A DNA stretch of 64,000 nt from Paraflavitalea sp. CAU 1676 (lineage in GTDB: Bacteria > Bacteroidota > Bacteroidia > Chitinophagales > Chitinophagaceae), in the NCBI RefSeq assembly GCF_029223285.1, contig NZ_JARHUJ010000002.1, positions 248,001 to 312,000 of the forward strand, read 5' to 3'. A program made the translations under genes and the position numbers. The notes below the pieces were generated by a model that made no database searches, had not been told where the DNA came from, and worked only from the letters and a program-made list of their open reading frames with translations. Shown here piece after piece: positions 9,914 to 51,039 of the stretch; within the stretch, counting starts at the first letter, position 1, and each line of letters opens with the position of its first letter.

Positions 9914-9968
9914 TTTAGCTGATTTATTTATAGTCAATAGATACGGCGGTATGCGGCGAAGCCAGCAA

Positions 9969-10988
9969 TCATAGCAAAACAGCTCCTTTCGGCTGGATAG
10001 GCTGGGGGATATCCGGCATGCCCAGCATCTGCAGCATATCGATCTCAATGGCGCGGCAAATGGCAAGCATGGGTGTGTCATTATGTAATCCTTCGAATGG
10101 GTTTTCGGAATAGTCGCCGATCATTTCCATGACGACATAGACCCATCCAACAATCGCCCCAGCCGGAATGCTGAGCCAAATGCCCGCATTGCCCAACTTG
10201 CTGAATTCGCCGATGATCCCAAAGGGGAGGAAGAATATGAAAATGCAGACGAACAGGAAGCTGAAGCTGGCGTATTTGCGGGGAAAAGGCGCCTGCTTGA
10301 TCCTTTCTGCATTGCCCTGTAGCTCGTAGGTCGACTTAATGGTCGCTTCCAGATCTATTTGCTGGATCATATTGATGGCCTTGCGTTCGTAGAGCAGCTG
10401 GATCATTTCGGTTTGTTTGTCCAGTAATTGTGCTGCTTTGTTGTTGTAGCCGAGCAGGCTCACCTGTTCTTCATTCGTTAAATACTGTTGATGGGCGACC
10501 TCCGAGAGCTCTGCCGCGTATTGCTCGTTCAGTTTTGCGCGCCTTCGGCGGTTACAAGGGCCGCTGGTGCGGCTTTCGGGGCTCACATGTTCCCAGGGCG
10601 TTGGTTGCAGCAGCTGTTCCCTGAGCAGGTAGAGATAGGCAATGTGCCGGAATATGATCTGTTTTCTGATGGCTGCACCATCGTCAGCAGGCATTTCTTC
10701 CGTTCGATAGTGCTTGATCATCGTTGTGAGTTTTCTGCTTTCATTTACCAGGGCACTCCATATTTTTATCCCTCCCCATAACCTGTCGTAAGCATGGCTG
10801 TTCTTAAAACCCACGTAAAATGCTACGGCCGTGCCTATCAATGCCAGGGGTAGCCAGGGAAATGATAATTTACAATGGGTGAAATAACATATACCTGCTA
10901 CCAGCGACATCCAGGCGGTTAACCACCATAAATGGTATCCGGCAAATTCATAGATGAACCTCAGCGTAAGCGTTTTCTTTACTATCAT
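9969..10988 (-). CDS. Bestrophin-family membrane channel
   Basis: 339 residues, the usual length for bacterial bestrophins (UPF0187). Membrane helices are visible near 30-50 and 48-66, at about 240-262 (FSFLFVCIFIFFLPFG) and 265-290. The conserved 'AFYVGFKNSHAYDRLWGG' after the second helix and 'YSENPFEGLHNDTPM' near the C-terminus are bestrophin signatures. Bacterial members form pentameric ion channels, cation- or anion-selective (family knowledge). Finding one between two DJ-1/PfpI genes (33 and 55 bp gaps) is unusual; it may adjust ions or potential during electrophile stress, much as other bacteria couple electrophile sensing to ion efflux (inference). Confidence 0.88.
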   Translation of the reverse strand: MIVKKTLTLRFIYEFAGYHLWWLTAWMSLVAGICYFTHCKLSFPWLPLALIGTAVAFYVGFKNSHAYDRLWGGIKIWSALVNESRKLTTMIKHYRTEEMPADDGAAIRKQIIFRHIAYLYLLREQLLQPTPWEHVSPESRTSGPCNRRRRAKLNEQYAAELSEVAHQQYLTNEEQVSLLGYNNKAAQLLDKQTEMIQLLYERKAINMIQQIDLEATIKSTYELQGNAERIKQAPFPRKYASFSFLFVCIFIFFLPFGIIGEFSKLGNAGIWLSIPAGAIVGWVYVVMEMIGDYSENPFEGLHNDTPMLAICRAIEIDMLQMLGMPDIPQPIQPKGAVLL

Positions 10989-11021
10989 AGCGATGGGGTA
11001 AACAGTGAAGAAGACTTGCGG

Positions 11022-11810
11022 TTATTGCTTTTTTACCAGCCAGTCGGCCACCGCCCGGGAGAAATCAGCTACGTCGATGGGGTGCCTGCTGGTGATGAGA
11101 TTACCATCTACCACCACCGGCTCGTCCGATAACTGGCCTCCCGCATTGATCAGGTCGGAATGTACATTCCAATACCCTGTGAGCTTCCTGCCTTTCAAAA
11201 TATTGGCTGTTGCCAACACGACAGGGGCATGACAAATGGCTGCCACTAATTTTCCTGCCTGGTTGAATTGTTGTATGAAGCGGATCACGTCTTTGTCAAA
11301 GCGAAGGTTATCCGGATTCCAGGCGCCGCCGGGAATGAATATGGCATCGTAGTCCTCTACTTTTATCTGATCGGCGGTTCGATCAACCTTTATCCACCCC
11401 ACGGGGTTGAGGTATTGAATAGCCATGATATGATCTTTTGCCATTTCGGGCATCGTGAGTCCGTACCTCTCAGGAGCTGGGTTGTATTTGGGAGCCACCA
11501 CGTCGACTTTGGCGCCCAGTTCCCTGAAATACCACAAGGGCCCCAGTAGTTCAATTTCTTCGAAGCCGTCTGCTGCGATCACAGCCATTCTTTTTCCCTG
11601 CAGCTTCGTTTTGTTCCCGACGGGTGTGAGGAAAAAGCTTTTCAGCTTTTCGTTGCCCGGTGCATTCAGCATGGCCGGCATCGACAATCCCGCCACAACG
11701 GGCTGGGTCGATAGTTTCGTAAGCATGTCGAATTCTTTCGTTGCCGTATTTTGGGCGTTGCCTGACATAACAATGATTGAAACGGTGAAAAATAGTGTTC
11801 CTTTTTTCAT
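11022..11810 (-). CDS. Exported DJ-1/PfpI family protein
   Basis: 262 residues. The N-terminus (KKGTLFFTVSIIVMSGNAQ) is a signal peptide; a linker of about 50 residues precedes the class I glutamine-amidotransferase-like domain. The PfpI motifs are present: 'AADGFEEIEL', 'IFIPGGAWNPD' and nucleophile elbow AAICHAPVVLA with Cys193-His194. Most PfpI/DJ-1 proteins are cytoplasmic, so a periplasmic member beside a second cytoplasmic one at 9236-9913 is notable. A role against reactive carbonyl or oxidative damage in the envelope is an inference from the family and neighbours. Confidence 0.85.
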   Translation of the reverse strand: MKKGTLFFTVSIIVMSGNAQNTATKEFDMLTKLSTQPVVAGLSMPAMLNAPGNEKLKSFFLTPVGNKTKLQGKRMAVIAADGFEEIELLGPLWYFRELGAKVDVVAPKYNPAPERYGLTMPEMAKDHIMAIQYLNPVGWIKVDRTADQIKVEDYDAIFIPGGAWNPDNLRFDKDVIRFIQQFNQAGKLVAAICHAPVVLATANILKGRKLTGYWNVHSDLINAGGQLSDEPVVVDGNLITSRHPIDVADFSRAVADWLVKKQ

Positions 11811-41630: not shown

Positions 41631-42257
41631 ATGAGGCAAGGCAATACTTTTACTTTTACCCGCATCAGTTATCGTTCCGGCGACTGGGATACCGACCAGC
41701 GCATGCCGTCAAATTTATTGAACTCACTGGTCGAGTACACTACCATTCCTGTAAATCCGAAAGAGCGGATCGTGGAGCTGGGCAGTGAGGATATGTTTAC
41801 GGCGCCCTTCTGCTACCTGAGCGGGCACAAGCTGGTGCAGTTCGATGCGCGGGAGCAGGCCAACTTCAGAAAGTATGTGCAGAACGGCGGCTTTGTTTTC
41901 GTAGACGACTGCAACCATGATATCGACGGGTTGTTTGCCAAATCGTTCGAGAGCCAGATGGCGAATACGTTTGGTCCGCCCGCTTTGAAAAAGATCCCCA
42001 ATAACCACGAACTCTATCGTTCTTTCTTCACTTTTGAAAAGGGACCTCCTCCTACGTCATTCGAGCTCAATGGCTGGGGCGACGACCTGGTGCATGATTA
42101 CCTCAAAGCGATTGAAATAAACGGCCGTATTGGCGTGCTGTACAGCAATAAGGACTATGGCTGCGAATGGGATTATGATTTCCGGAATAAGCGTTTTATG
42201 GCTGAGGACAATACGAAGTTTGGGCTGAATATTATTTTGTATGCGATGCAGACGTAG
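41631..42257 (+). CDS. DUF4159-domain protein
   Basis: 208 residues, no signal peptide. The DUF4159 pattern is visible: 'FTFTRISYRSGDWDTDQ', 'NGGFVFVDDCNH', 'IPNNHELYRSFFTF' and 'GRIGVLYSNKDYGCEWDYD'. The fold resembles the glutamine-amidotransferase-like domain found at the end of MoxR/BatA systems, where DUF4159 commonly occurs. Here the gene is divergent from moxR (259-bp shared gap), not inside the operon. Function unknown; a role with that system is inferred from context. Confidence 0.83.
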   Translation: MRQGNTFTFTRISYRSGDWDTDQRMPSNLLNSLVEYTTIPVNPKERIVELGSEDMFTAPFCYLSGHKLVQFDAREQANFRKYVQNGGFVFVDDCNHDIDGLFAKSFESQMANTFGPPALKKIPNNHELYRSFFTFEKGPPPTSFELNGWGDDLVHDYLKAIEINGRIGVLYSNKDYGCEWDYDFRNKRFMAEDNTKFGLNIILYAMQT

Positions 42258-42508: not shown

Positions 42509-44503
42509 ATGGCGGATATTAAGATCACGGGGAAGGGGATTCAGCGTGTGCTGAGCAAATTTGACTACCGGCAGGCAATTGCCGAATATATCTGGAACGG
42601 GTTTGATGCGCAGGCCACGGCGGTGAGCCTGGATTATGAAGCCAATGCGCTGGGGTTCCTTTCCAAGATCGAGATCAGCGATAACGGGTACGGTATCCAT
42701 CGCACCAAGCTCGCGGAAAAGTTCTCTCCTTTCTTCGATTCGCAGAAAGCCATCGAGATCGAATCTCCCAAAAACACTTCTGCCGTGCATGGCAAAAACG
42801 GAGTAGGGCGGCTGACCTTTTTCAAGTTCGCCACAGAAGCCATCTGGCGCACGGTGTATGCCGAGAAGAAAAAGAAGTATGAATACTTTATCAATATCAA
42901 GTTCGAGTCGATCAATAAGTATGATAGTCCGGAGTCGGCTGTGCGGGAAGTGAAGTCAAAGACAGGTACTTCCGTTACCTTTTATAATATTCTTCCCGAT
43001 CTCAATGAGGCGAAGTTGCAAGAGGAGTTAATGAGTTTCCTGTGCCTGGAGTTTGGCTGGTACCTGGAGTTGCACAAAGAGAACAGTTATGCTTTGCTCA
43101 TCAATGGTCAACCCCTCGACTACTCGGCCCTGGTAGGGGATACCCAGCATTTCATGCTGAACCATGAAGATACCAGCACCCAGTTTGAAGTGCGGTATGT
43201 GCGGTGGAATGAGAAGATCAATAAAGAGTTCTCCAAATACTATTATATCGGGTCGGATGATACGGAGCGGTATAAAGAGTTTACCTCCCTCAACAACAAA
43301 GGGGATCATTTCTTTCACAGTGTGTTCATCAAGAGCGATTATTTCAACCAGTTCCGTTTCAGGGGTACGGGCACCGACCAGCAGTTGGCCCTTATTGGTG
43401 GTAACCGCATGGATGCTGTATTCCGGTACCTGCACAAGCGACTGCATCTCTACCTGCAGGACAAACGGAAACCTTACCTGAAACAATATACTGATGTGCT
43501 GATCGAGCAGTATGAGCAGGATAAAGTTTTTCCTGTATTCCCGGCCAATCCCTGGGATGGCCTACGCAAGGCTGAACTGGAGAACCTGGTGCGCAACCTG
43601 TACGAGATCCAACCCAAGTTATTCCTGAACCTGAACATCGAGCAGAAGAAAACCTTTGTGCGCCTGCTGAATCTGCTGCTCGATAGCCTGGAACGCGATA
43701 AGCTCTTCGCCATCCTGGATGGGGTGGTAGAGTTGTCGGCCGAGGAGCGACAACAGATGGCGGATGTGCTGCAGGTGACGCAGCTGGCGCGCGTTAACCA
43801 TACCATCCGGCTGATCGAAGACCGGTACAAGACGATCGATCACCTGCGCGACCTGATCGTTCGAAAGGAGCTGAAGGCGAATGAGCGCGATCACCTGCAA
43901 CAGCTGATCGAAGCGCATTACTGGATCTTTGGCGAACAATATCACTTAGTAACGGCGGCAGAGCCGAAGTTTGATGAAGCGTTGAGAAGGCATATTCATT
44001 TGTTGCGGGGCGAGGCGCCCGTGCGGCCGGTTGATCATGAGGACAAGTATCGCGAGATGGATATTTTCCTTTGCCGGCAGGATGTGCTGACGAATGAGAT
44101 CAGGAATATCGTGGTAGAACTGAAGCACCCGAACCTGAAACTGGGTGAACAAGAACTGACGCAGGTGAAGAAATATATGAACGTGATCATGGACGAGCCG
44201 CAGTTTAACGGCGCCAATATGAGTTGGACCTTTTACCTGGTGGGGACGGATTTCAACAGCAAGGGAGAGATCGAAGCGGCGTTGGACAATGCGAAGCCGC
44301 ATGGGGAGCCTTCGCTGGCCTTTAAAACCGGCCAGTACAAGATCTATGTGAAGAAATGGAGCGAACTGATCAACGAGTTTGAGATGAAGCACAAGTTCCT
44401 CAACGATAAGCTGCAGCTGGAGCGTAAGCTGTTGCACCAGCCGCTCGACACGGCGGGCGAAACAGTGGCAGCGGCGCGGGCTAATACGGCAGCGGTGCTG
44501 TAG
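42509..44503 (+). CDS. GHKL ATPase fused to a Shedu/DUF4263-like PD-(D/E)xK nuclease domain
   Basis: 664 residues. The N-terminal GHKL ATPase domain has all boxes: N-box EYIWNGFDA (Glu26, Asn30), G1 SDNGYGI (Asp58) and G2 GKNGVG at 95-100. The middle (about 330-470) is helical. The C-terminal part resembles DUF4263/Shedu nucleases: a 'HYWIFGEQY' segment, then Asp518 (REMDIF), Glu537-x-Lys539 (VVELKHP) and Gln552...Tyr556 (QVKKY), a credible PD-(D/E)xK site. An ATP-gated clamp driving a nuclease, as in MutL- or Hsp90-like machines, would suit DNA surveillance or anti-phage defence (inference). The gene stands alone, with no other defence gene next to it. Confidence 0.8.
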   Translation: MADIKITGKGIQRVLSKFDYRQAIAEYIWNGFDAQATAVSLDYEANALGFLSKIEISDNGYGIHRTKLAEKFSPFFDSQKAIEIESPKNTSAVHGKNGVGRLTFFKFATEAIWRTVYAEKKKKYEYFINIKFESINKYDSPESAVREVKSKTGTSVTFYNILPDLNEAKLQEELMSFLCLEFGWYLELHKENSYALLINGQPLDYSALVGDTQHFMLNHEDTSTQFEVRYVRWNEKINKEFSKYYYIGSDDTERYKEFTSLNNKGDHFFHSVFIKSDYFNQFRFRGTGTDQQLALIGGNRMDAVFRYLHKRLHLYLQDKRKPYLKQYTDVLIEQYEQDKVFPVFPANPWDGLRKAELENLVRNLYEIQPKLFLNLNIEQKKTFVRLLNLLLDSLERDKLFAILDGVVELSAEERQQMADVLQVTQLARVNHTIRLIEDRYKTIDHLRDLIVRKELKANERDHLQQLIEAHYWIFGEQYHLVTAAEPKFDEALRRHIHLLRGEAPVRPVDHEDKYREMDIFLCRQDVLTNEIRNIVVELKHPNLKLGEQELTQVKKYMNVIMDEPQFNGANMSWTFYLVGTDFNSKGEIEAALDNAKPHGEPSLAFKTGQYKIYVKKWSELINEFEMKHKFLNDKLQLERKLLHQPLDTAGETVAAARANTAAVL

Positions 44504-44638: not shown

Positions 44639-45205
44639 TTACAGAACCTGGTACTTCCGAATGATCCAGAAGAAGTTGTACAGTATAAAGAAGATGACGA
44701 GGGCGGCGTGGAAGCGTTCGTTGCGGGTGCGGATGGCGACCAGACACAGTATGACATGAATGGCGATGCGTATGAGGTATTCGGTGCCCAGCGATTGATA
44801 ATACTCCACTCCCTTGAGGAAAGTGTCGCCTACATCAAACAGGAAGGATAAGCCGAGGAAAGAGAATATCCAGTTCTTCCTCGAATAGTAATACTCTTTA
44901 TACCCTGCATATTCCTTCATGTCGTCGGGGAAGAGCAGGGAGCAGGTTATATAGTATACCACCACATAACTGATGATGAACAGGTAGACCTCGAAACTCC
45001 ATTCTTTTACCCCTTTGAGCCTGATCTCCCACCACCAGAAATCGATGAGCGAGAGAAACACAAATGCCACCCAAAGCAGGTGGACCCAGTATATGCGCAC
45101 TTTGGTGGGGTGCTCGATCAGTTTGGCCACTCCCTTCAATAATGTAGCTACACTAAGGCTGACTATGATGCTCATGAGCATCCTTATATGGAAGAACTGG
45201 TCCAT
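44639..45205 (-). CDS. Integral membrane protein of unknown function
   Basis: 188 residues with about five hydrophobic helices: 'LMSIIVSLSVATLLKGV', 'IYWVHLLWVAFVFLSLIDFW', 'VYLFIISYVVVYYITCSLLF', 'WIFSFLGLSFLFDVGD' and 'IAIHVILCLVAI'. A charged loop (PDDMKEYAGYKEYYYSRKN) lies in the middle. The composition is genuine membrane protein; no family recognised. It is convergent with the GHKL-nuclease gene (135-bp gap) and stands alone on its strand. Confidence 0.7.
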   Translation of the reverse strand: MDQFFHIRMLMSIIVSLSVATLLKGVAKLIEHPTKVRIYWVHLLWVAFVFLSLIDFWWWEIRLKGVKEWSFEVYLFIISYVVVYYITCSLLFPDDMKEYAGYKEYYYSRKNWIFSFLGLSFLFDVGDTFLKGVEYYQSLGTEYLIRIAIHVILCLVAIRTRNERFHAALVIFFILYNFFWIIRKYQVL

Positions 45206-46542: not shown

Positions 46543-49500
46543 ATGAACCCAAGACTTGTGTTTTTGACAATGCTGTCTATTGTGCTCCATTCAATTAGTA
46601 GCATTGCCCAACCGACACCCCGCACCATTCGCGGAACTGTTTTATCAGAAGATCAACTGCCTTTGGAAGGCGCCAGTATTACCATCAAAGGAAGCGGACA
46701 GGGTACGGCTAGCCGTAAAGACGGGAGCTTTGAACTTCCCGTTACGCCGCAAGCAAAAACGCTCCTGGTTTCTTTTGCCGGTTTTGAATTCCAGGAAATT
46801 CCCCTTTCTCAAAAAGACGTTTACCGTGTTGTTTTAAAAAAGTCGAGCACCCAGCTGGAAGATATTGTGGTGACCGGCTATAGTACGCAGCGGAAACGAT
46901 TTATTGCCGGCGCCATTACCACCGTGGGTGGTGATGAGATCAAGAATAGTCCGGCGGCTGGCTTTAACCAGCTGCTGCAGGGCAAGGCCAGCGGTGTGCA
47001 GGTGTTGTCGAACTCGGGTGTTGCCGGTGGCAGTATTACCTTCCGCATACGGGGTAATAATTCGATCAATGCAAGCAGTGATCCTTTATATATTATCGAT
47101 GGCGTTTTTGTGAGCAATGCTGAGACGATCCAAACAGGATTGGGTCAACAGCAACCTACGAACCCGTTGGCGACGATCAATCCTTCCGATATCGAGAGCA
47201 TCACCATTCTTAAAGATGCCAACGCTACGGCGATCTATGGGTCGCAGGGGGCGAATGGTGTGGTGATCGTTACGACGCGACGCGGTAAACAAAATACGCG
47301 GGCTAAGATATCGCTCAATACTTACCAGGGCTGGTCGAAGCCGGTAGGTGAATTGACCGTTGCCAATGGTGTGGAGACGGCGAAGCTGGCGAATGAGGCC
47401 GTCGTGAATACGGCGAAGGACAATGGGATAGACCCGAGTACGGTGGTGTTGCCGTTTCCCAATCCCGATACGTTGAAGACCTATGACCGCCTGGGTGATG
47501 TATACCGCACGGGGCGTACCTCGAGCTATGAACTCTCGGCCCAGGGTGGGGCGGACAGGAATACGTATTATGCCAGTATCGGTTACCTGAAGCAGGAATC
47601 GGTGACGCGGCCTACGGATTTTGAGCGCTTTACCGCGCGGTTGAACTATGATAACCAGCTGGCGAAGAAGCTGAAGCTGGGTACAAGTATCGGTATTACG
47701 CGCACGTTCCGCAATGTGAGCAGCAGTGATAATAATCCGCAGGGGGTGATCAACTCTGCTTATTTCGTGCGTAGTTACCTGCCTGTGTACAATGCCAATG
47801 GCACTTATGCGCGGTATGGCAGCTTCGATAACCATCAGGCGCTGATCGACCACCTCGATAATAAAGCAGTGGGCTGGCGTATCATCGGCAATGCCTTCCT
47901 CGAATATTCCTTTTTGCCGGAGCTGAAGCTGCGCAGCAGCTGGAGTATAGACAAGGCCGATGAGCAGGAAAATAACTATGCGAGTACGTTGATCAGTGCG
48001 GGTGTTTCCTCGAACGGTTCGGGGGCTGCTTTTGAAACGCACAACCTGGTATTGCTGAATGAGCAGGTGCTTACCTGGATCAAGTCTTTTGGCACCGACC
48101 GGCAACATGCCATCAATGCGCTGGTGGGTAATACGATCAGTAACACGATCAGTGAACTGACGTCTGCATCCGGTACCGGTTTCCCCAGCAATAATATTAC
48201 GGCCATTTCGGGTGCGTCTATCCGCTCGGGTTCTTCTTCGCGTTCGGTGGCCAAACTGGCTTCCTTCTTCGGCAAGGCGAGCTATACGTATAACGATAAG
48301 TATACCATCGATGCGAGTTTGCGCGCTGATGGTTCTTCGCGCTTCGGGGCCAATAACCAGTGGGGTTATTTCCCTTCGGGTGGTGTGACCTGGAGAGCGG
48401 GACAGGAGTCGTTCATTGAAAGCCTCCACTTCTTTGATGACCTGAAGCTGCGCGCCAGCTTTGGATTGACGGGCAACCAAAATGGCGTTGGCGCTTATGC
48501 TGCCAAGGGCCTGTGGGGTGCGGGCGCCAACTACCTGGAGATTGCGGGTACGGCGCCATCGCAGCTGGCCAACCCAGACCTTACCTGGGAAACGACCAGA
48601 CAGTTCGATGCCGGTGTGGATGTGACCATCCTGAACAAACGCTTAAGCGTTAGCCTGGACTATTATCACAAGTATACATATGACCTGTTGCTGAATGTAC
48701 CGGTGCCTAACCGCCTTGGTTTTGCTTCTGTGCTCCAGAACTATGGGACCGTGAGCAACAAGGGTTTTGAGGTAAGTGTGCACAGCAATAACCTGAGCAG
48801 CCGCGACTTTGTGTGGACGACAGACTTCAACATTTCTTTCAACACGAATAAGATCGAGAAGCTGGCGGCTGATATCAGTCTGGGAGCTTCTGGCCGTAAT
48901 ATCTCGATCCTGCGCCAGGGTTATGCCGTCAATTCTTTCCAATTGTACAAACAATTGTATGTGGACCGGAACAGCGGTAATGCCGTGTATGATGATGTCA
49001 ATAAAGATGGTTCCATTACCAATGCCGACCGGCAGATCGTGGGCAATGCGCTGCCGAAGTATTCCGGTGGGCTGACGAATAACCTGCAATACAAAAACTT
49101 CGATCTGAACGTGTTCATTTATTTCCAGCAGGGAAACAAGATCATGGACATGAATGAATTCTTCATGGTGCATGGTGGCCTGCAGGCCAATATCGGCTTT
49201 GCGCCGAGGCAACTGGAGCGCTGGCAAAAGCCGGGTGATGTTACTGACATCCCGCGCTTAACTACGGCGAAAGCCAATCCCAATGATAACGGCGGCGCTG
49301 CCAATAACTACGGCGGTTTTGTGGCCAACCTGAGCAGCCGCTACCTGAAGGACGGTTCTTTTGCCAGGTTGAAAACGCTTTCGCTGGGCTATACTTTGCC
49401 CGGCAGCTGGCTGAGTGCGGTGAAGTTCAGTTCGGCCAGGTTGTATGTGCAGGCCACCAACCTGTTTACAGTAACGAACTATACCGGTGCTGATCCTGAG

Positions 49501-49599
49501 GTGAGCTCGCAGAGCGGCAATCAGAATACGGCGGGTTATGATTGGGCTACCGTGCCTCAACCGAAAACGGTGCAGGTGGGGCTTACTGTAAGCTTCTAG
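46543..49599 (+). CDS. SusC/RagA TonB-linked outer membrane protein (second locus)
   Basis: 1018 residues: signal peptide (LVFLTMLSIVLHSISSIAQ), carboxypeptidase-regulatory-like domain (about 28-105), plug ('LLQGKASGVQVLSNSGVAGG', 'TAIYGSQGANGVVIVTTRRG') and barrel ending 'VQVGLTVSF'. No STN domain, so it is not coupled to a FecR. It differs clearly from the two SusC proteins at 18-25 kb. The cognate SusD starts 93 bp downstream, and an M14 peptidase-like gene and a GH28-like gene follow, which points to a proteinaceous or pectic substrate; the porin sequence does not say which. Confidence 0.95.
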   Translation: MNPRLVFLTMLSIVLHSISSIAQPTPRTIRGTVLSEDQLPLEGASITIKGSGQGTASRKDGSFELPVTPQAKTLLVSFAGFEFQEIPLSQKDVYRVVLKKSSTQLEDIVVTGYSTQRKRFIAGAITTVGGDEIKNSPAAGFNQLLQGKASGVQVLSNSGVAGGSITFRIRGNNSINASSDPLYIIDGVFVSNAETIQTGLGQQQPTNPLATINPSDIESITILKDANATAIYGSQGANGVVIVTTRRGKQNTRAKISLNTYQGWSKPVGELTVANGVETAKLANEAVVNTAKDNGIDPSTVVLPFPNPDTLKTYDRLGDVYRTGRTSSYELSAQGGADRNTYYASIGYLKQESVTRPTDFERFTARLNYDNQLAKKLKLGTSIGITRTFRNVSSSDNNPQGVINSAYFVRSYLPVYNANGTYARYGSFDNHQALIDHLDNKAVGWRIIGNAFLEYSFLPELKLRSSWSIDKADEQENNYASTLISAGVSSNGSGAAFETHNLVLLNEQVLTWIKSFGTDRQHAINALVGNTISNTISELTSASGTGFPSNNITAISGASIRSGSSSRSVAKLASFFGKASYTYNDKYTIDASLRADGSSRFGANNQWGYFPSGGVTWRAGQESFIESLHFFDDLKLRASFGLTGNQNGVGAYAAKGLWGAGANYLEIAGTAPSQLANPDLTWETTRQFDAGVDVTILNKRLSVSLDYYHKYTYDLLLNVPVPNRLGFASVLQNYGTVSNKGFEVSVHSNNLSSRDFVWTTDFNISFNTNKIEKLAADISLGASGRNISILRQGYAVNSFQLYKQLYVDRNSGNAVYDDVNKDGSITNADRQIVGNALPKYSGGLTNNLQYKNFDLNVFIYFQQGNKIMDMNEFFMVHGGLQANIGFAPRQLERWQKPGDVTDIPRLTTAKANPNDNGGAANNYGGFVANLSSRYLKDGSFARLKTLSLGYTLPGSWLSAVKFSSARLYVQATNLFTVTNYTGADPEVSSQSGNQNTAGYDWATVPQPKTVQVGLTVSF

Positions 49600-49692
49600 T
49601 GCCTCCTGACTGTGGGGCGCCGATGCCTTGTGGTTGTTGGGCTTGCCGATGGGCCGATGTTTTTTTGATCTTAACTGTTTAAAGGATTTACC

Positions 49693-51039
49693 ATGAATCG
49701 TATAACTATAATTCTTGTGGCTGCAGGTTTGGTCTCCTTGTCGTCCTGCTCCAAATTCCTCGAAGAGAACCCTAACAATGCGATACCGTCGGAGACGGCG
49801 GTGACTGATGTGGGTACGGCCCGTGCGGCCATTACCGGCGTATATGACGCTATACAGGGATATTTTGCCTCCAATTATGTTACCCTGGGTACGATCACTG
49901 CCGATAATGTGATCGCCAATGGCACGCTGACCCAGTATTTGCAACTGGATCAGAATGCGATCCCTACCGATAACGTGACTACCGTTGCGGCCTACCAGGG
50001 GATTTATAAAGTGATCAATGCTGCGAATAGTGTGATCACTTATGTGCCGGCTGTGACTGACCCGCTGCTGACGACCGCTGAAAAAAATAAGATACTGGGT
50101 GAGGCTTATTTTGCCCGGGCCCTGGGGTATTTTGACCTGGGCCGTGGCTGGGGCGGGGTGCAGTTGCAACTGAAGCCTACTACGGTGGTGAGTGATGCCA
50201 AGGGCATCAAGCGCAGTACCCTCGACCAAACCTATGACCAGGTGCTGGCCGATCTTATTGAAGCCGAAAAGCTGCTGCCCGAAGATGCTACTACGCGTAA
50301 CCGGGCACAGAAGAGCACGGCACGTGCGTTGCGTGCGCGGCTGCATTTGTATCGCAAGCAATGGGCGGATGCGGAACAATATGCTTCGCAGGTGATCGCC
50401 AATACGGCCAAGTATGAACTGATCCCGTATAAGAATTTCTTTACGGCCCCCTTTTTGACGAAGGAATCGGTCTTTGAACTTACGTTCTCGGCCAATGACC
50501 GTAACAGCTACTGGAACCTGTGGTATCCCAGTTCTGGTGGCGGTCAGTATACGCTGAAACCTGCCGCTGGTTTTGTGACGAAGGTTAAAAATGCGGCGAT
50601 CGGTGGTTCAAGAACGAGTCTCATCGCCGGAAGTGGTACTGATGTGTATGGTGTTTTGTACAATGCCAGTGCCACGAGTACCGATCCGTCGTATGTGATC
50701 CGTATAGCGGAGTTGTACCTGATCCGCGCGGAAGCCCGTGCGCAGCAGGGTAAGCTGACGGGGACCGATGGCGCCATTGCCGACCTGAATGCCGTACGCG
50801 CACGCGCCGGCGTGGCTGGCACGGCGGCTACGACCAAAGACGAGGTATTGCTGGCGATCGAGGAGGAGAACGGTATCGAGTTTGCGTTTGAGGCGCACCG
50901 CTGGTTTGACCTGGTGCGTACGGAAAGAGCTGGTGCGGTGCTGGGCCTTACGAACCGTAATTTCTGGTTGTTTCCTTTGCCTTTCGCTGACGTATTATCT
51001 GACCCGGACCTGGAGGGTAAGAACAATCCTGGTTATTAA
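49693..51039 (+). CDS. SusD/RagB-family lipoprotein (second locus)
   Basis: 448 residues. Lipobox LSSC (Cys19) followed by 'SKFLEENPNN', the standard SusD beginning. 'AEKNKILGEAYFARALGYFDLGRGWGG' (in part), 'YLIRAEARAQQG' and 'IEEENGIEFAFEAHRWFDLVRT' are hallmark RagB/SusD segments. It should cap the SusC encoded upstream and capture substrate at the surface. Confidence 0.95.
   Translation: MNRITIILVAAGLVSLSSCSKFLEENPNNAIPSETAVTDVGTARAAITGVYDAIQGYFASNYVTLGTITADNVIANGTLTQYLQLDQNAIPTDNVTTVAAYQGIYKVINAANSVITYVPAVTDPLLTTAEKNKILGEAYFARALGYFDLGRGWGGVQLQLKPTTVVSDAKGIKRSTLDQTYDQVLADLIEAEKLLPEDATTRNRAQKSTARALRARLHLYRKQWADAEQYASQVIANTAKYELIPYKNFFTAPFLTKESVFELTFSANDRNSYWNLWYPSSGGGQYTLKPAAGFVTKVKNAAIGGSRTSLIAGSGTDVYGVLYNASATSTDPSYVIRIAELYLIRAEARAQQGKLTGTDGAIADLNAVRARAGVAGTAATTKDEVLLAIEEENGIEFAFEAHRWFDLVRTERAGAVLGLTNRNFWLFPLPFADVLSDPDLEGKNNPGY

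Follow-up and report, generated by a model that had tools for sequence, protein, structure and literature searches.

A single gene in a 64,000-nucleotide stretch of DNA from Paraflavitalea sp. CAU 1676 (contig NZ_JARHUJ010000002.1, positions 248,001 to 312,000; hereafter the window) encodes a protein in which an N-terminal GHKL ATPase domain is followed by an S5-like middle domain, a helical linker and a C-terminal PD-(D/E)xK nuclease domain of the Shedu type. We consider it highly likely that this one gene suffices to specify an anti-phage nuclease of the GHKL–Shedu kind (paraMORC3; 'type I-D' Shedu) that stands alone and would act as an ATP-gated clamp. This reading builds on the architecture, intact motifs, fold, relatives, synteny and constraint of the gene; defence by this particular copy we infer by analogy, with the anti-phage phenotype carried over from VcSduA, a protein of Vibrio cholerae. 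The comparison links a widely scattered and poorly annotated family to an anti-phage system already tested by experiment. What is new here is the genus-wide fixation and synteny of the gene, the hsdR-like and P4-like settings of its relatives, and the existence of related ATPases that have no nuclease.

Conservation of the two active sites

A peptide pattern hit 249 stretches in a collection of contigs, and a relative of the window protein is encoded by 240 of them, which excludes a chance origin. The best 80 of the 240 loci were fetched; 71 contain a full-length protein, and 9 with truncated, split or nuclease-less versions were left out of the alignment. The main alignment has 75 rows (the window protein, the 71 full-length relatives and three relatives from plasmids or phages), and a second one has 15 rows of mostly more distant, largely Enterobacterales-order relatives. 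The closest named relative is that of Paraflavitalea pollutisoli (84% identity; locus L002).

The original prediction held that all GHKL boxes are intact, and the alignments bear this out. The motif residues of the ATPase domain are E26, N30, D33, D58xG60xG62, G95xxGxGR101 and G153-T154; N30, D33, D58, G60, G62, S78, G95, G98, G100, R101 and G153 are identical in all 75 rows, E26, K80 and T154 are kept in 74, and the GHKL residues checked are unchanged in 15 of 15 rows of the distant set. Consistent with this, the Pfam model HATPase_c_3 matches residues 21-136 of the window protein (2.6e-15) and is present in 57 of 57 family members scanned. Residues 5-327 of the structural model superpose on the GHKL plus middle domains of TRAP1 and MORC2, with a root-mean-square deviation of 7-8 when both domains are taken together. 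Within the S5-like domain W233, N262, H270 and S271 are conserved, and in the linker P369 and R439 are invariant (alignment A2).

The nuclease site had been proposed to comprise Asp518, Glu537-x-Lys539 and Gln552, and each of these residues is identical in every row of both alignments (75 of 75 in the main set, 15 of 15 in the distant one). The same is true of E459, which completes an E-D-ExK pattern. The 'WIFGE.Y' segment, likened in the original prediction to that of Shedu nucleases, is likewise upheld in the main alignment, where W472 and E476 are identical in all rows and G475 in 74; W573 and W617 are identical in 75 of 75. Conservation is looser in the distant set: of its 15 rows, 9 have E, 4 have D and 2 have P at position 476, and 13 have W and 2 have F at position 573. 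One further relative, L133, which stands outside the 15-row count, has N at position 476 and F at 573. Three relatives (L132, L133 and L134) share Pro or Asn at 476 together with Phe at 573, and on these residues they possibly form a distinct subfamily.

Kinship of the nuclease domain and of the fusion

The assignment of the C-terminal domain to Shedu comes from profile comparison. A profile of the 57 nuclease domains plus 12 more distant ones, aligned with hhalign against 13 SduA_C proteins, gave a score of 57.9 and a probability of 95% over 131 columns, and the alignment pairs the E/WIF segment, the D, the ExK-P and the Q region with their SduA_C counterparts. (Of 17 SduA_C proteins over the cut-off, 4 were dropped because the ExK-segment pattern failed to detect them.) Fifty column shuffles reached at most 18.3, and an HsdR-type control, small and imperfect with its 6 N-terminal stretches and with L040 outside the HsdR-like cluster, reached 19.1. 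With the 57 domains alone the score was 45.3 and the probability 89%. A smaller, earlier comparison, for which 7 full-length SduA_C proteins were used, gave a weak signal: a score of 27.3 with a probability of 7.3% (P 0.005), where 20 shuffles rose to 15.0 at most.

Single-model searches gave less. The window protein is unmatched by Pfam SduA_C (PF14082, DUF4263) at E ≤ 1, and one of the 57 members reaches that model at E ≤ 0.01 (best E 7.4e-4), short of its curated cut-off. PADLOC SduA models match 10 and 3 of the 57, and the window protein itself has weak PADLOC matches to REase_II (0.0003) and SduA (0.003) as well as a sub-threshold Pfam match to HSDR_N_2 (0.0016, residues 507-560). The Pfam miss lowers the assignment by Pfam model and leaves the profile-based homology standing; the profile comparison thus supports a Shedu-like nuclease although the Pfam model misses the family.

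A search of PDB sequences with the single protein returned 4 matches, all with E 0.2 or worse, and a search with the nuclease profile returned nothing at E ≤ 10; the full profile found MutL-, TopoVI-B- and kinase-type chains through its GHKL part only. Structural comparison of the nuclease, which had been put forward as a check, gave a divided answer: Foldseek with the nuclease model found nothing at E ≤ 0.001, its weak list including acetyltransferases and other unrelated folds, and a second look with VIA placed PD-(D/E)xK enzymes at the top, with match lengths of 132-147 residues for Shedu and 110 for EndoMS. Judged by its aligned sequence, the nuclease domain is read as homologous with Shedu, and the fusion originally proposed, with both of its named active sites, fits the results. 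A different GHKL protein, L166 (open reading frame from 187), has a sub-threshold SduA_C match of its own (E 4.5e-4), which suggests that GHKL–Shedu fusions may have arisen more than once.

To our knowledge, neither the Shedu SduA proteins of E. coli and Bacillus cereus carry a GHKL domain nor MutL, MORC and Hsp90 (TRAP1) a Shedu-type nuclease. The former (PDB 8ps4/8ps5 and 8ti8/8ti9) show 15-19% identity in the nuclease, and the latter have other cellular roles than the window protein. In PHROGs the window protein matches phrog_6203, a family of unknown function, over almost its whole length (1.4e-67), and the records of plasmids, phages and E. coli, where annotated, label relatives 'ATP-binding protein' or 'hypothetical protein'.

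The architecture is not new to the literature, and the statement in the original prediction that it had not been characterized has to be given up. Iyer, Abhiman and Aravind (2008; PMC2292703) predicted computationally a family, paraMORC3, with a GHKL domain, an S5 domain and a C-terminal RE-fold nuclease with an E-D-ExK pattern, and noted that its standalone genes come chiefly from Proteobacteria and Bacteroidetes. The window protein shares this architecture, the E-D-ExK pattern and the standalone setting, and its family is likewise sporadically distributed; the two are likened by architecture.

Experimental evidence comes from VcSduA (PMC12137116, 2025; summarized in PMC12409362), described there as the product of a single V. 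cholerae gene that combines GHKL motifs I-IV with a DUF4263 nuclease, is located in VSP-II of the WASA lineage and is named Shedu type I-D. As reported there, VcSduA in E. coli is active against Drexlerviridae, strongly against some; the E27A and K557A variants are inactive, so that both active sites are required; cultures were robustly protected at all tested multiplicities of infection, which was interpreted as direct restriction; the protein was modelled as an entwined dimer; and homologues occur in about 1.2% of genomes. Like VcSduA, the window protein is the product of a single gene with an N-terminal GHKL domain, a C-terminal PD-(D/E)xK domain and both sites intact, and the catalytic E27 would correspond to E26. 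Unlike the window gene, that of VcSduA is island-borne; its lysine is K557 rather than K539, with an E-to-K spacing of 530 where 15 family proteins measured have 495-516, and it is described with DUF4263, a model that the window family reaches in the one member noted above. None of the 46 plasmid records with relatives is from Vibrio. The window gene is best read, from its sequence, as a distant member of the paraMORC3/VcSduA kind, and by analogy with VcSduA the candidate defence gene of the original prediction is very probably anti-phage.

A relationship of the ATPase to restriction enzymes bears on another reading, namely that the gene is an orphan relative of BbrUII/HgiDII, site-specific type II GHKL endonucleases that need a cognate methylase. 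The N-terminal ATPases are related (NCBIfam BbrUII/HgiDII model, 1.2e-13), and the PADLOC REase_II model matches 16 of 57 members. The NCBIfam match, however, reaches 50.5 bits where the cut-off is 550 and is confined to residues 24-203, the model is matched at E ≤ 0.001 by only 8 of 57 members, and the C-terminus is related to Shedu. Furthermore, a scan of 10 flanking window proteins gave Pfam matches for 8, no methylase or nuclease family being among them, and nothing for the other 2. We regard this reading as quite improbable.

For the GHKL–Shedu defence nuclease that we favour, a mechanism can be sketched. Two chains would dimerize through the C-terminal nuclease region and, with ATP bound, through their GHKL domains too, so that the GHKL–S5 part might close round DNA in the manner of the clamps formed by MutL, MORC or topoisomerase VI subunit B. 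A signal from ATP binding or hydrolysis would be relayed through the S5 domain and linker to the PD-(D/E)xK site (D518, E537-x-K539, Q552) and license it to cut invading DNA. As no methylase partner was seen, the cue that sets self apart from non-self is probably not modification but the ends, topology or replication state of the DNA.

Occurrence, fixation and settings of relatives

Relatives span Bacteroidota, Bacillota, Chloroflexota, Cyanobacteria, Proteobacteria, candidate phyla and Archaea, and occur in the 46 plasmid records and in 2 phage records, a scattered spread that points to horizontal transfer. Of 195 same-family genomes sampled, 20 match, and 3 of these 20 belong to the genus. 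Among the 192 outside it, 9 have near full-length matches, 2 GHKL-only matches and 3 short GHKL matches; 3 more have, in frames of 684-702 amino acids, a partial match that extends to the nuclease end, and may be distant full-length members. In the gammaproteobacterial order of the Cognaticolwellia locus, 19 of 394 genomes match, 12 near full length, counting the centre genome, which was picked because it carries a copy.

The family is thus sporadic, yet it is fixed in this genus. The gene is present in all five genus genomes examined, with the same neighbours and with 79-84% identity in the other four. Over residues 1-645 the ratio of nonsynonymous to synonymous polymorphism per site (pN/pS) is 0.133 (GHKL 0.127, S5 0.162, linker 0.163, nuclease 0.095), beside values of 0.076 for the neighbouring DUF4159 gene, 0.083 for MoxR and 0.150 for a downstream 188-residue protein (four of five genomes); pN/pS is only a rough guide here because synonymous divergence (dS) is saturated or nearly so over the whole gene in all ten genus pairs. 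Six same-family genomes with a close DUF4159 homologue lack the gene in the 13-14 kb examined, and since the 188-residue neighbour is also absent from them they define no clean empty site.

Fixation bears on the main rival explanation, that the gene encodes a domesticated, vertically inherited host DNA-maintenance enzyme in which a MutL-like clamp and an EndoMS-like nuclease act on aberrant DNA such as mismatches, ends or stalled forks. Against it stand the sporadic occurrence elsewhere, the relatives on plasmids, in phages and in a P4-like element, and the shorter structural match to EndoMS than to Shedu; moreover, a MutL_C match over the cut-off is found in 5 of 5 genus genomes. On balance we think such a role unlikely. 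The presence of MutL_C in all five likewise makes a replacement of MutL unlikely.

A survey for island context, suggested in the original prediction, was positive for some relatives. A close relative of the Salmonella copy occurs in 11 of 5426 E. coli genomes, and in the 3 of these 11 loci viewed the gene lies between psu (phage polarity suppression) and an integrase gene, in a P4-like element at ssrA. This site we take to be a defence hotspot of P4 satellites. That the gene stands alone is true of the window and the genus, but some relatives ride on the P4-like element and others follow hsdR-like genes.

In five loci (L005, L006, L044, L050 and L061) an HsdR-like gene, so named from Pfam tally and length, ends 3-34 bp upstream, and L006, L015 and L039 have further type I-like neighbours. 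A scan of 128 of 272 neighbour proteins, taken from 67 of 72 loci after those without the nuclease (five) had been set aside, gave among the matches listed (the first 25 of 141 for Pfam and of 442 for PADLOC; counts without a matched control) 5 HSDR_N, 3 Methylase_S, 3 TIR_2, 3 reverse transcriptase and 2 GmrSD_N matches in Pfam, and 5 REase_I and 3-4 GajA-model matches in PADLOC. These type I neighbours raise the idea that the protein is an accessory subunit of type I restriction, working in trans with an unlinked HsdR. But the gene is solitary in the window and the genus, the psu–integrase interval of the three E. coli loci has no type I gene, and VcSduA alone protects E. coli in the assays reported in PMC12137116; we consider an accessory role very improbable. 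A same-strand gene lies within 60 bp upstream in 20 of 69 loci, and most copies therefore lack such a partner.

Two other features of the neighbourhoods were seen. Related neighbour proteins of 465-549 amino acids adjoin the gene in L026, L030, L042, L051 and L068 and are a possible recurrent partner; SLFN_AlbA_2 and HATPase_c_4 (Pfam) each occur 4 times among the matches listed for the 128 neighbours. The Alistipes relative (L050, 5631-7637), directly after hsdS–hsdR-like genes, has an in-frame TGA and is apparently a pseudogene.

At five loci (L077-L081, at about 9953-11278; four Pedobacter and one metagenome-assembled genome of Sphingobacteriaceae) the ATPase protein ends before the nuclease. 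These proteins have about 423-437 residues, contain the GHKL motifs and are 44-45% identical. An unrelated gene, common to all five loci, starts 51-172 bp on. With pN/pS of 0.112 at dS of 0.33-1.02, the nuclease-less copies are under purifying selection, and the ATPase therefore seems useful without a nuclease of its own. A full-length copy is additionally present in one of the five genomes, and a similar GHKL-only protein occurs in two same-family genomes. These copies raise a tentative, rather unlikely alternative in which the GHKL clamp would be the functional unit, either fixed in a genus as a resident genome guardian or persisting without the nuclease. It would trap or compact foreign DNA in a MORC-like way, and the Shedu domain would be an optional cutter. 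Two features are worth following: the fixation in the genus, and the nuclease-less copies under selection, which offer a natural test of the clamp's role in the absence of the cutter.

The locus and its neighbours

The features of the locus are collected in Table 1; the host genome comprises 8.8 Mb in 23 contigs.

Table 1 Coordinates of the fusion gene, its domains and its flanking genes in the window
Feature	Position	Strand	Remarks
GHKL-ATPase/Shedu-type nuclease fusion gene	42509..44503	+	ATG start; 664 aa; intact, without internal stop
GHKL (Bergerat-fold) ATPase domain	42509..43123	+	about residues 1-205
S5-like middle domain	43124..43498	+	about residues 206-330
Helical linker	43499..43849	+	about residues 331-447; from model secondary structure and conserved columns
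Shedu-type PD-(D/E)xK nuclease domain	43850..44443	+	residues 448-645
Predicted nuclease-site codons	44060; 44117-44125; 44162	+	D518; E537-x-K539; Q552
Upstream DUF4159 protein	41631..42257	+	Pfam DUF4159, 1e-52; synteny in 5/5 genus genomes
Downstream convergent 188-aa protein	44639..45205	-	synteny; no Pfam match

The DUF4159 neighbour is not part of the system; beyond it lie divergently oriented MoxR, DUF58 and BatA genes. The 188-residue protein, hydrophobic as judged by eye, neighbours the gene in all five genus genomes, one of which has only a 41-residue match to it; it has no tblastn match in loci L004-L081 and is probably not part of the system either. A SnoaL-like gene also lies downstream, and further on (46543-51039) the window contains a SusC/SusD-type pair for outer-membrane nutrient uptake.
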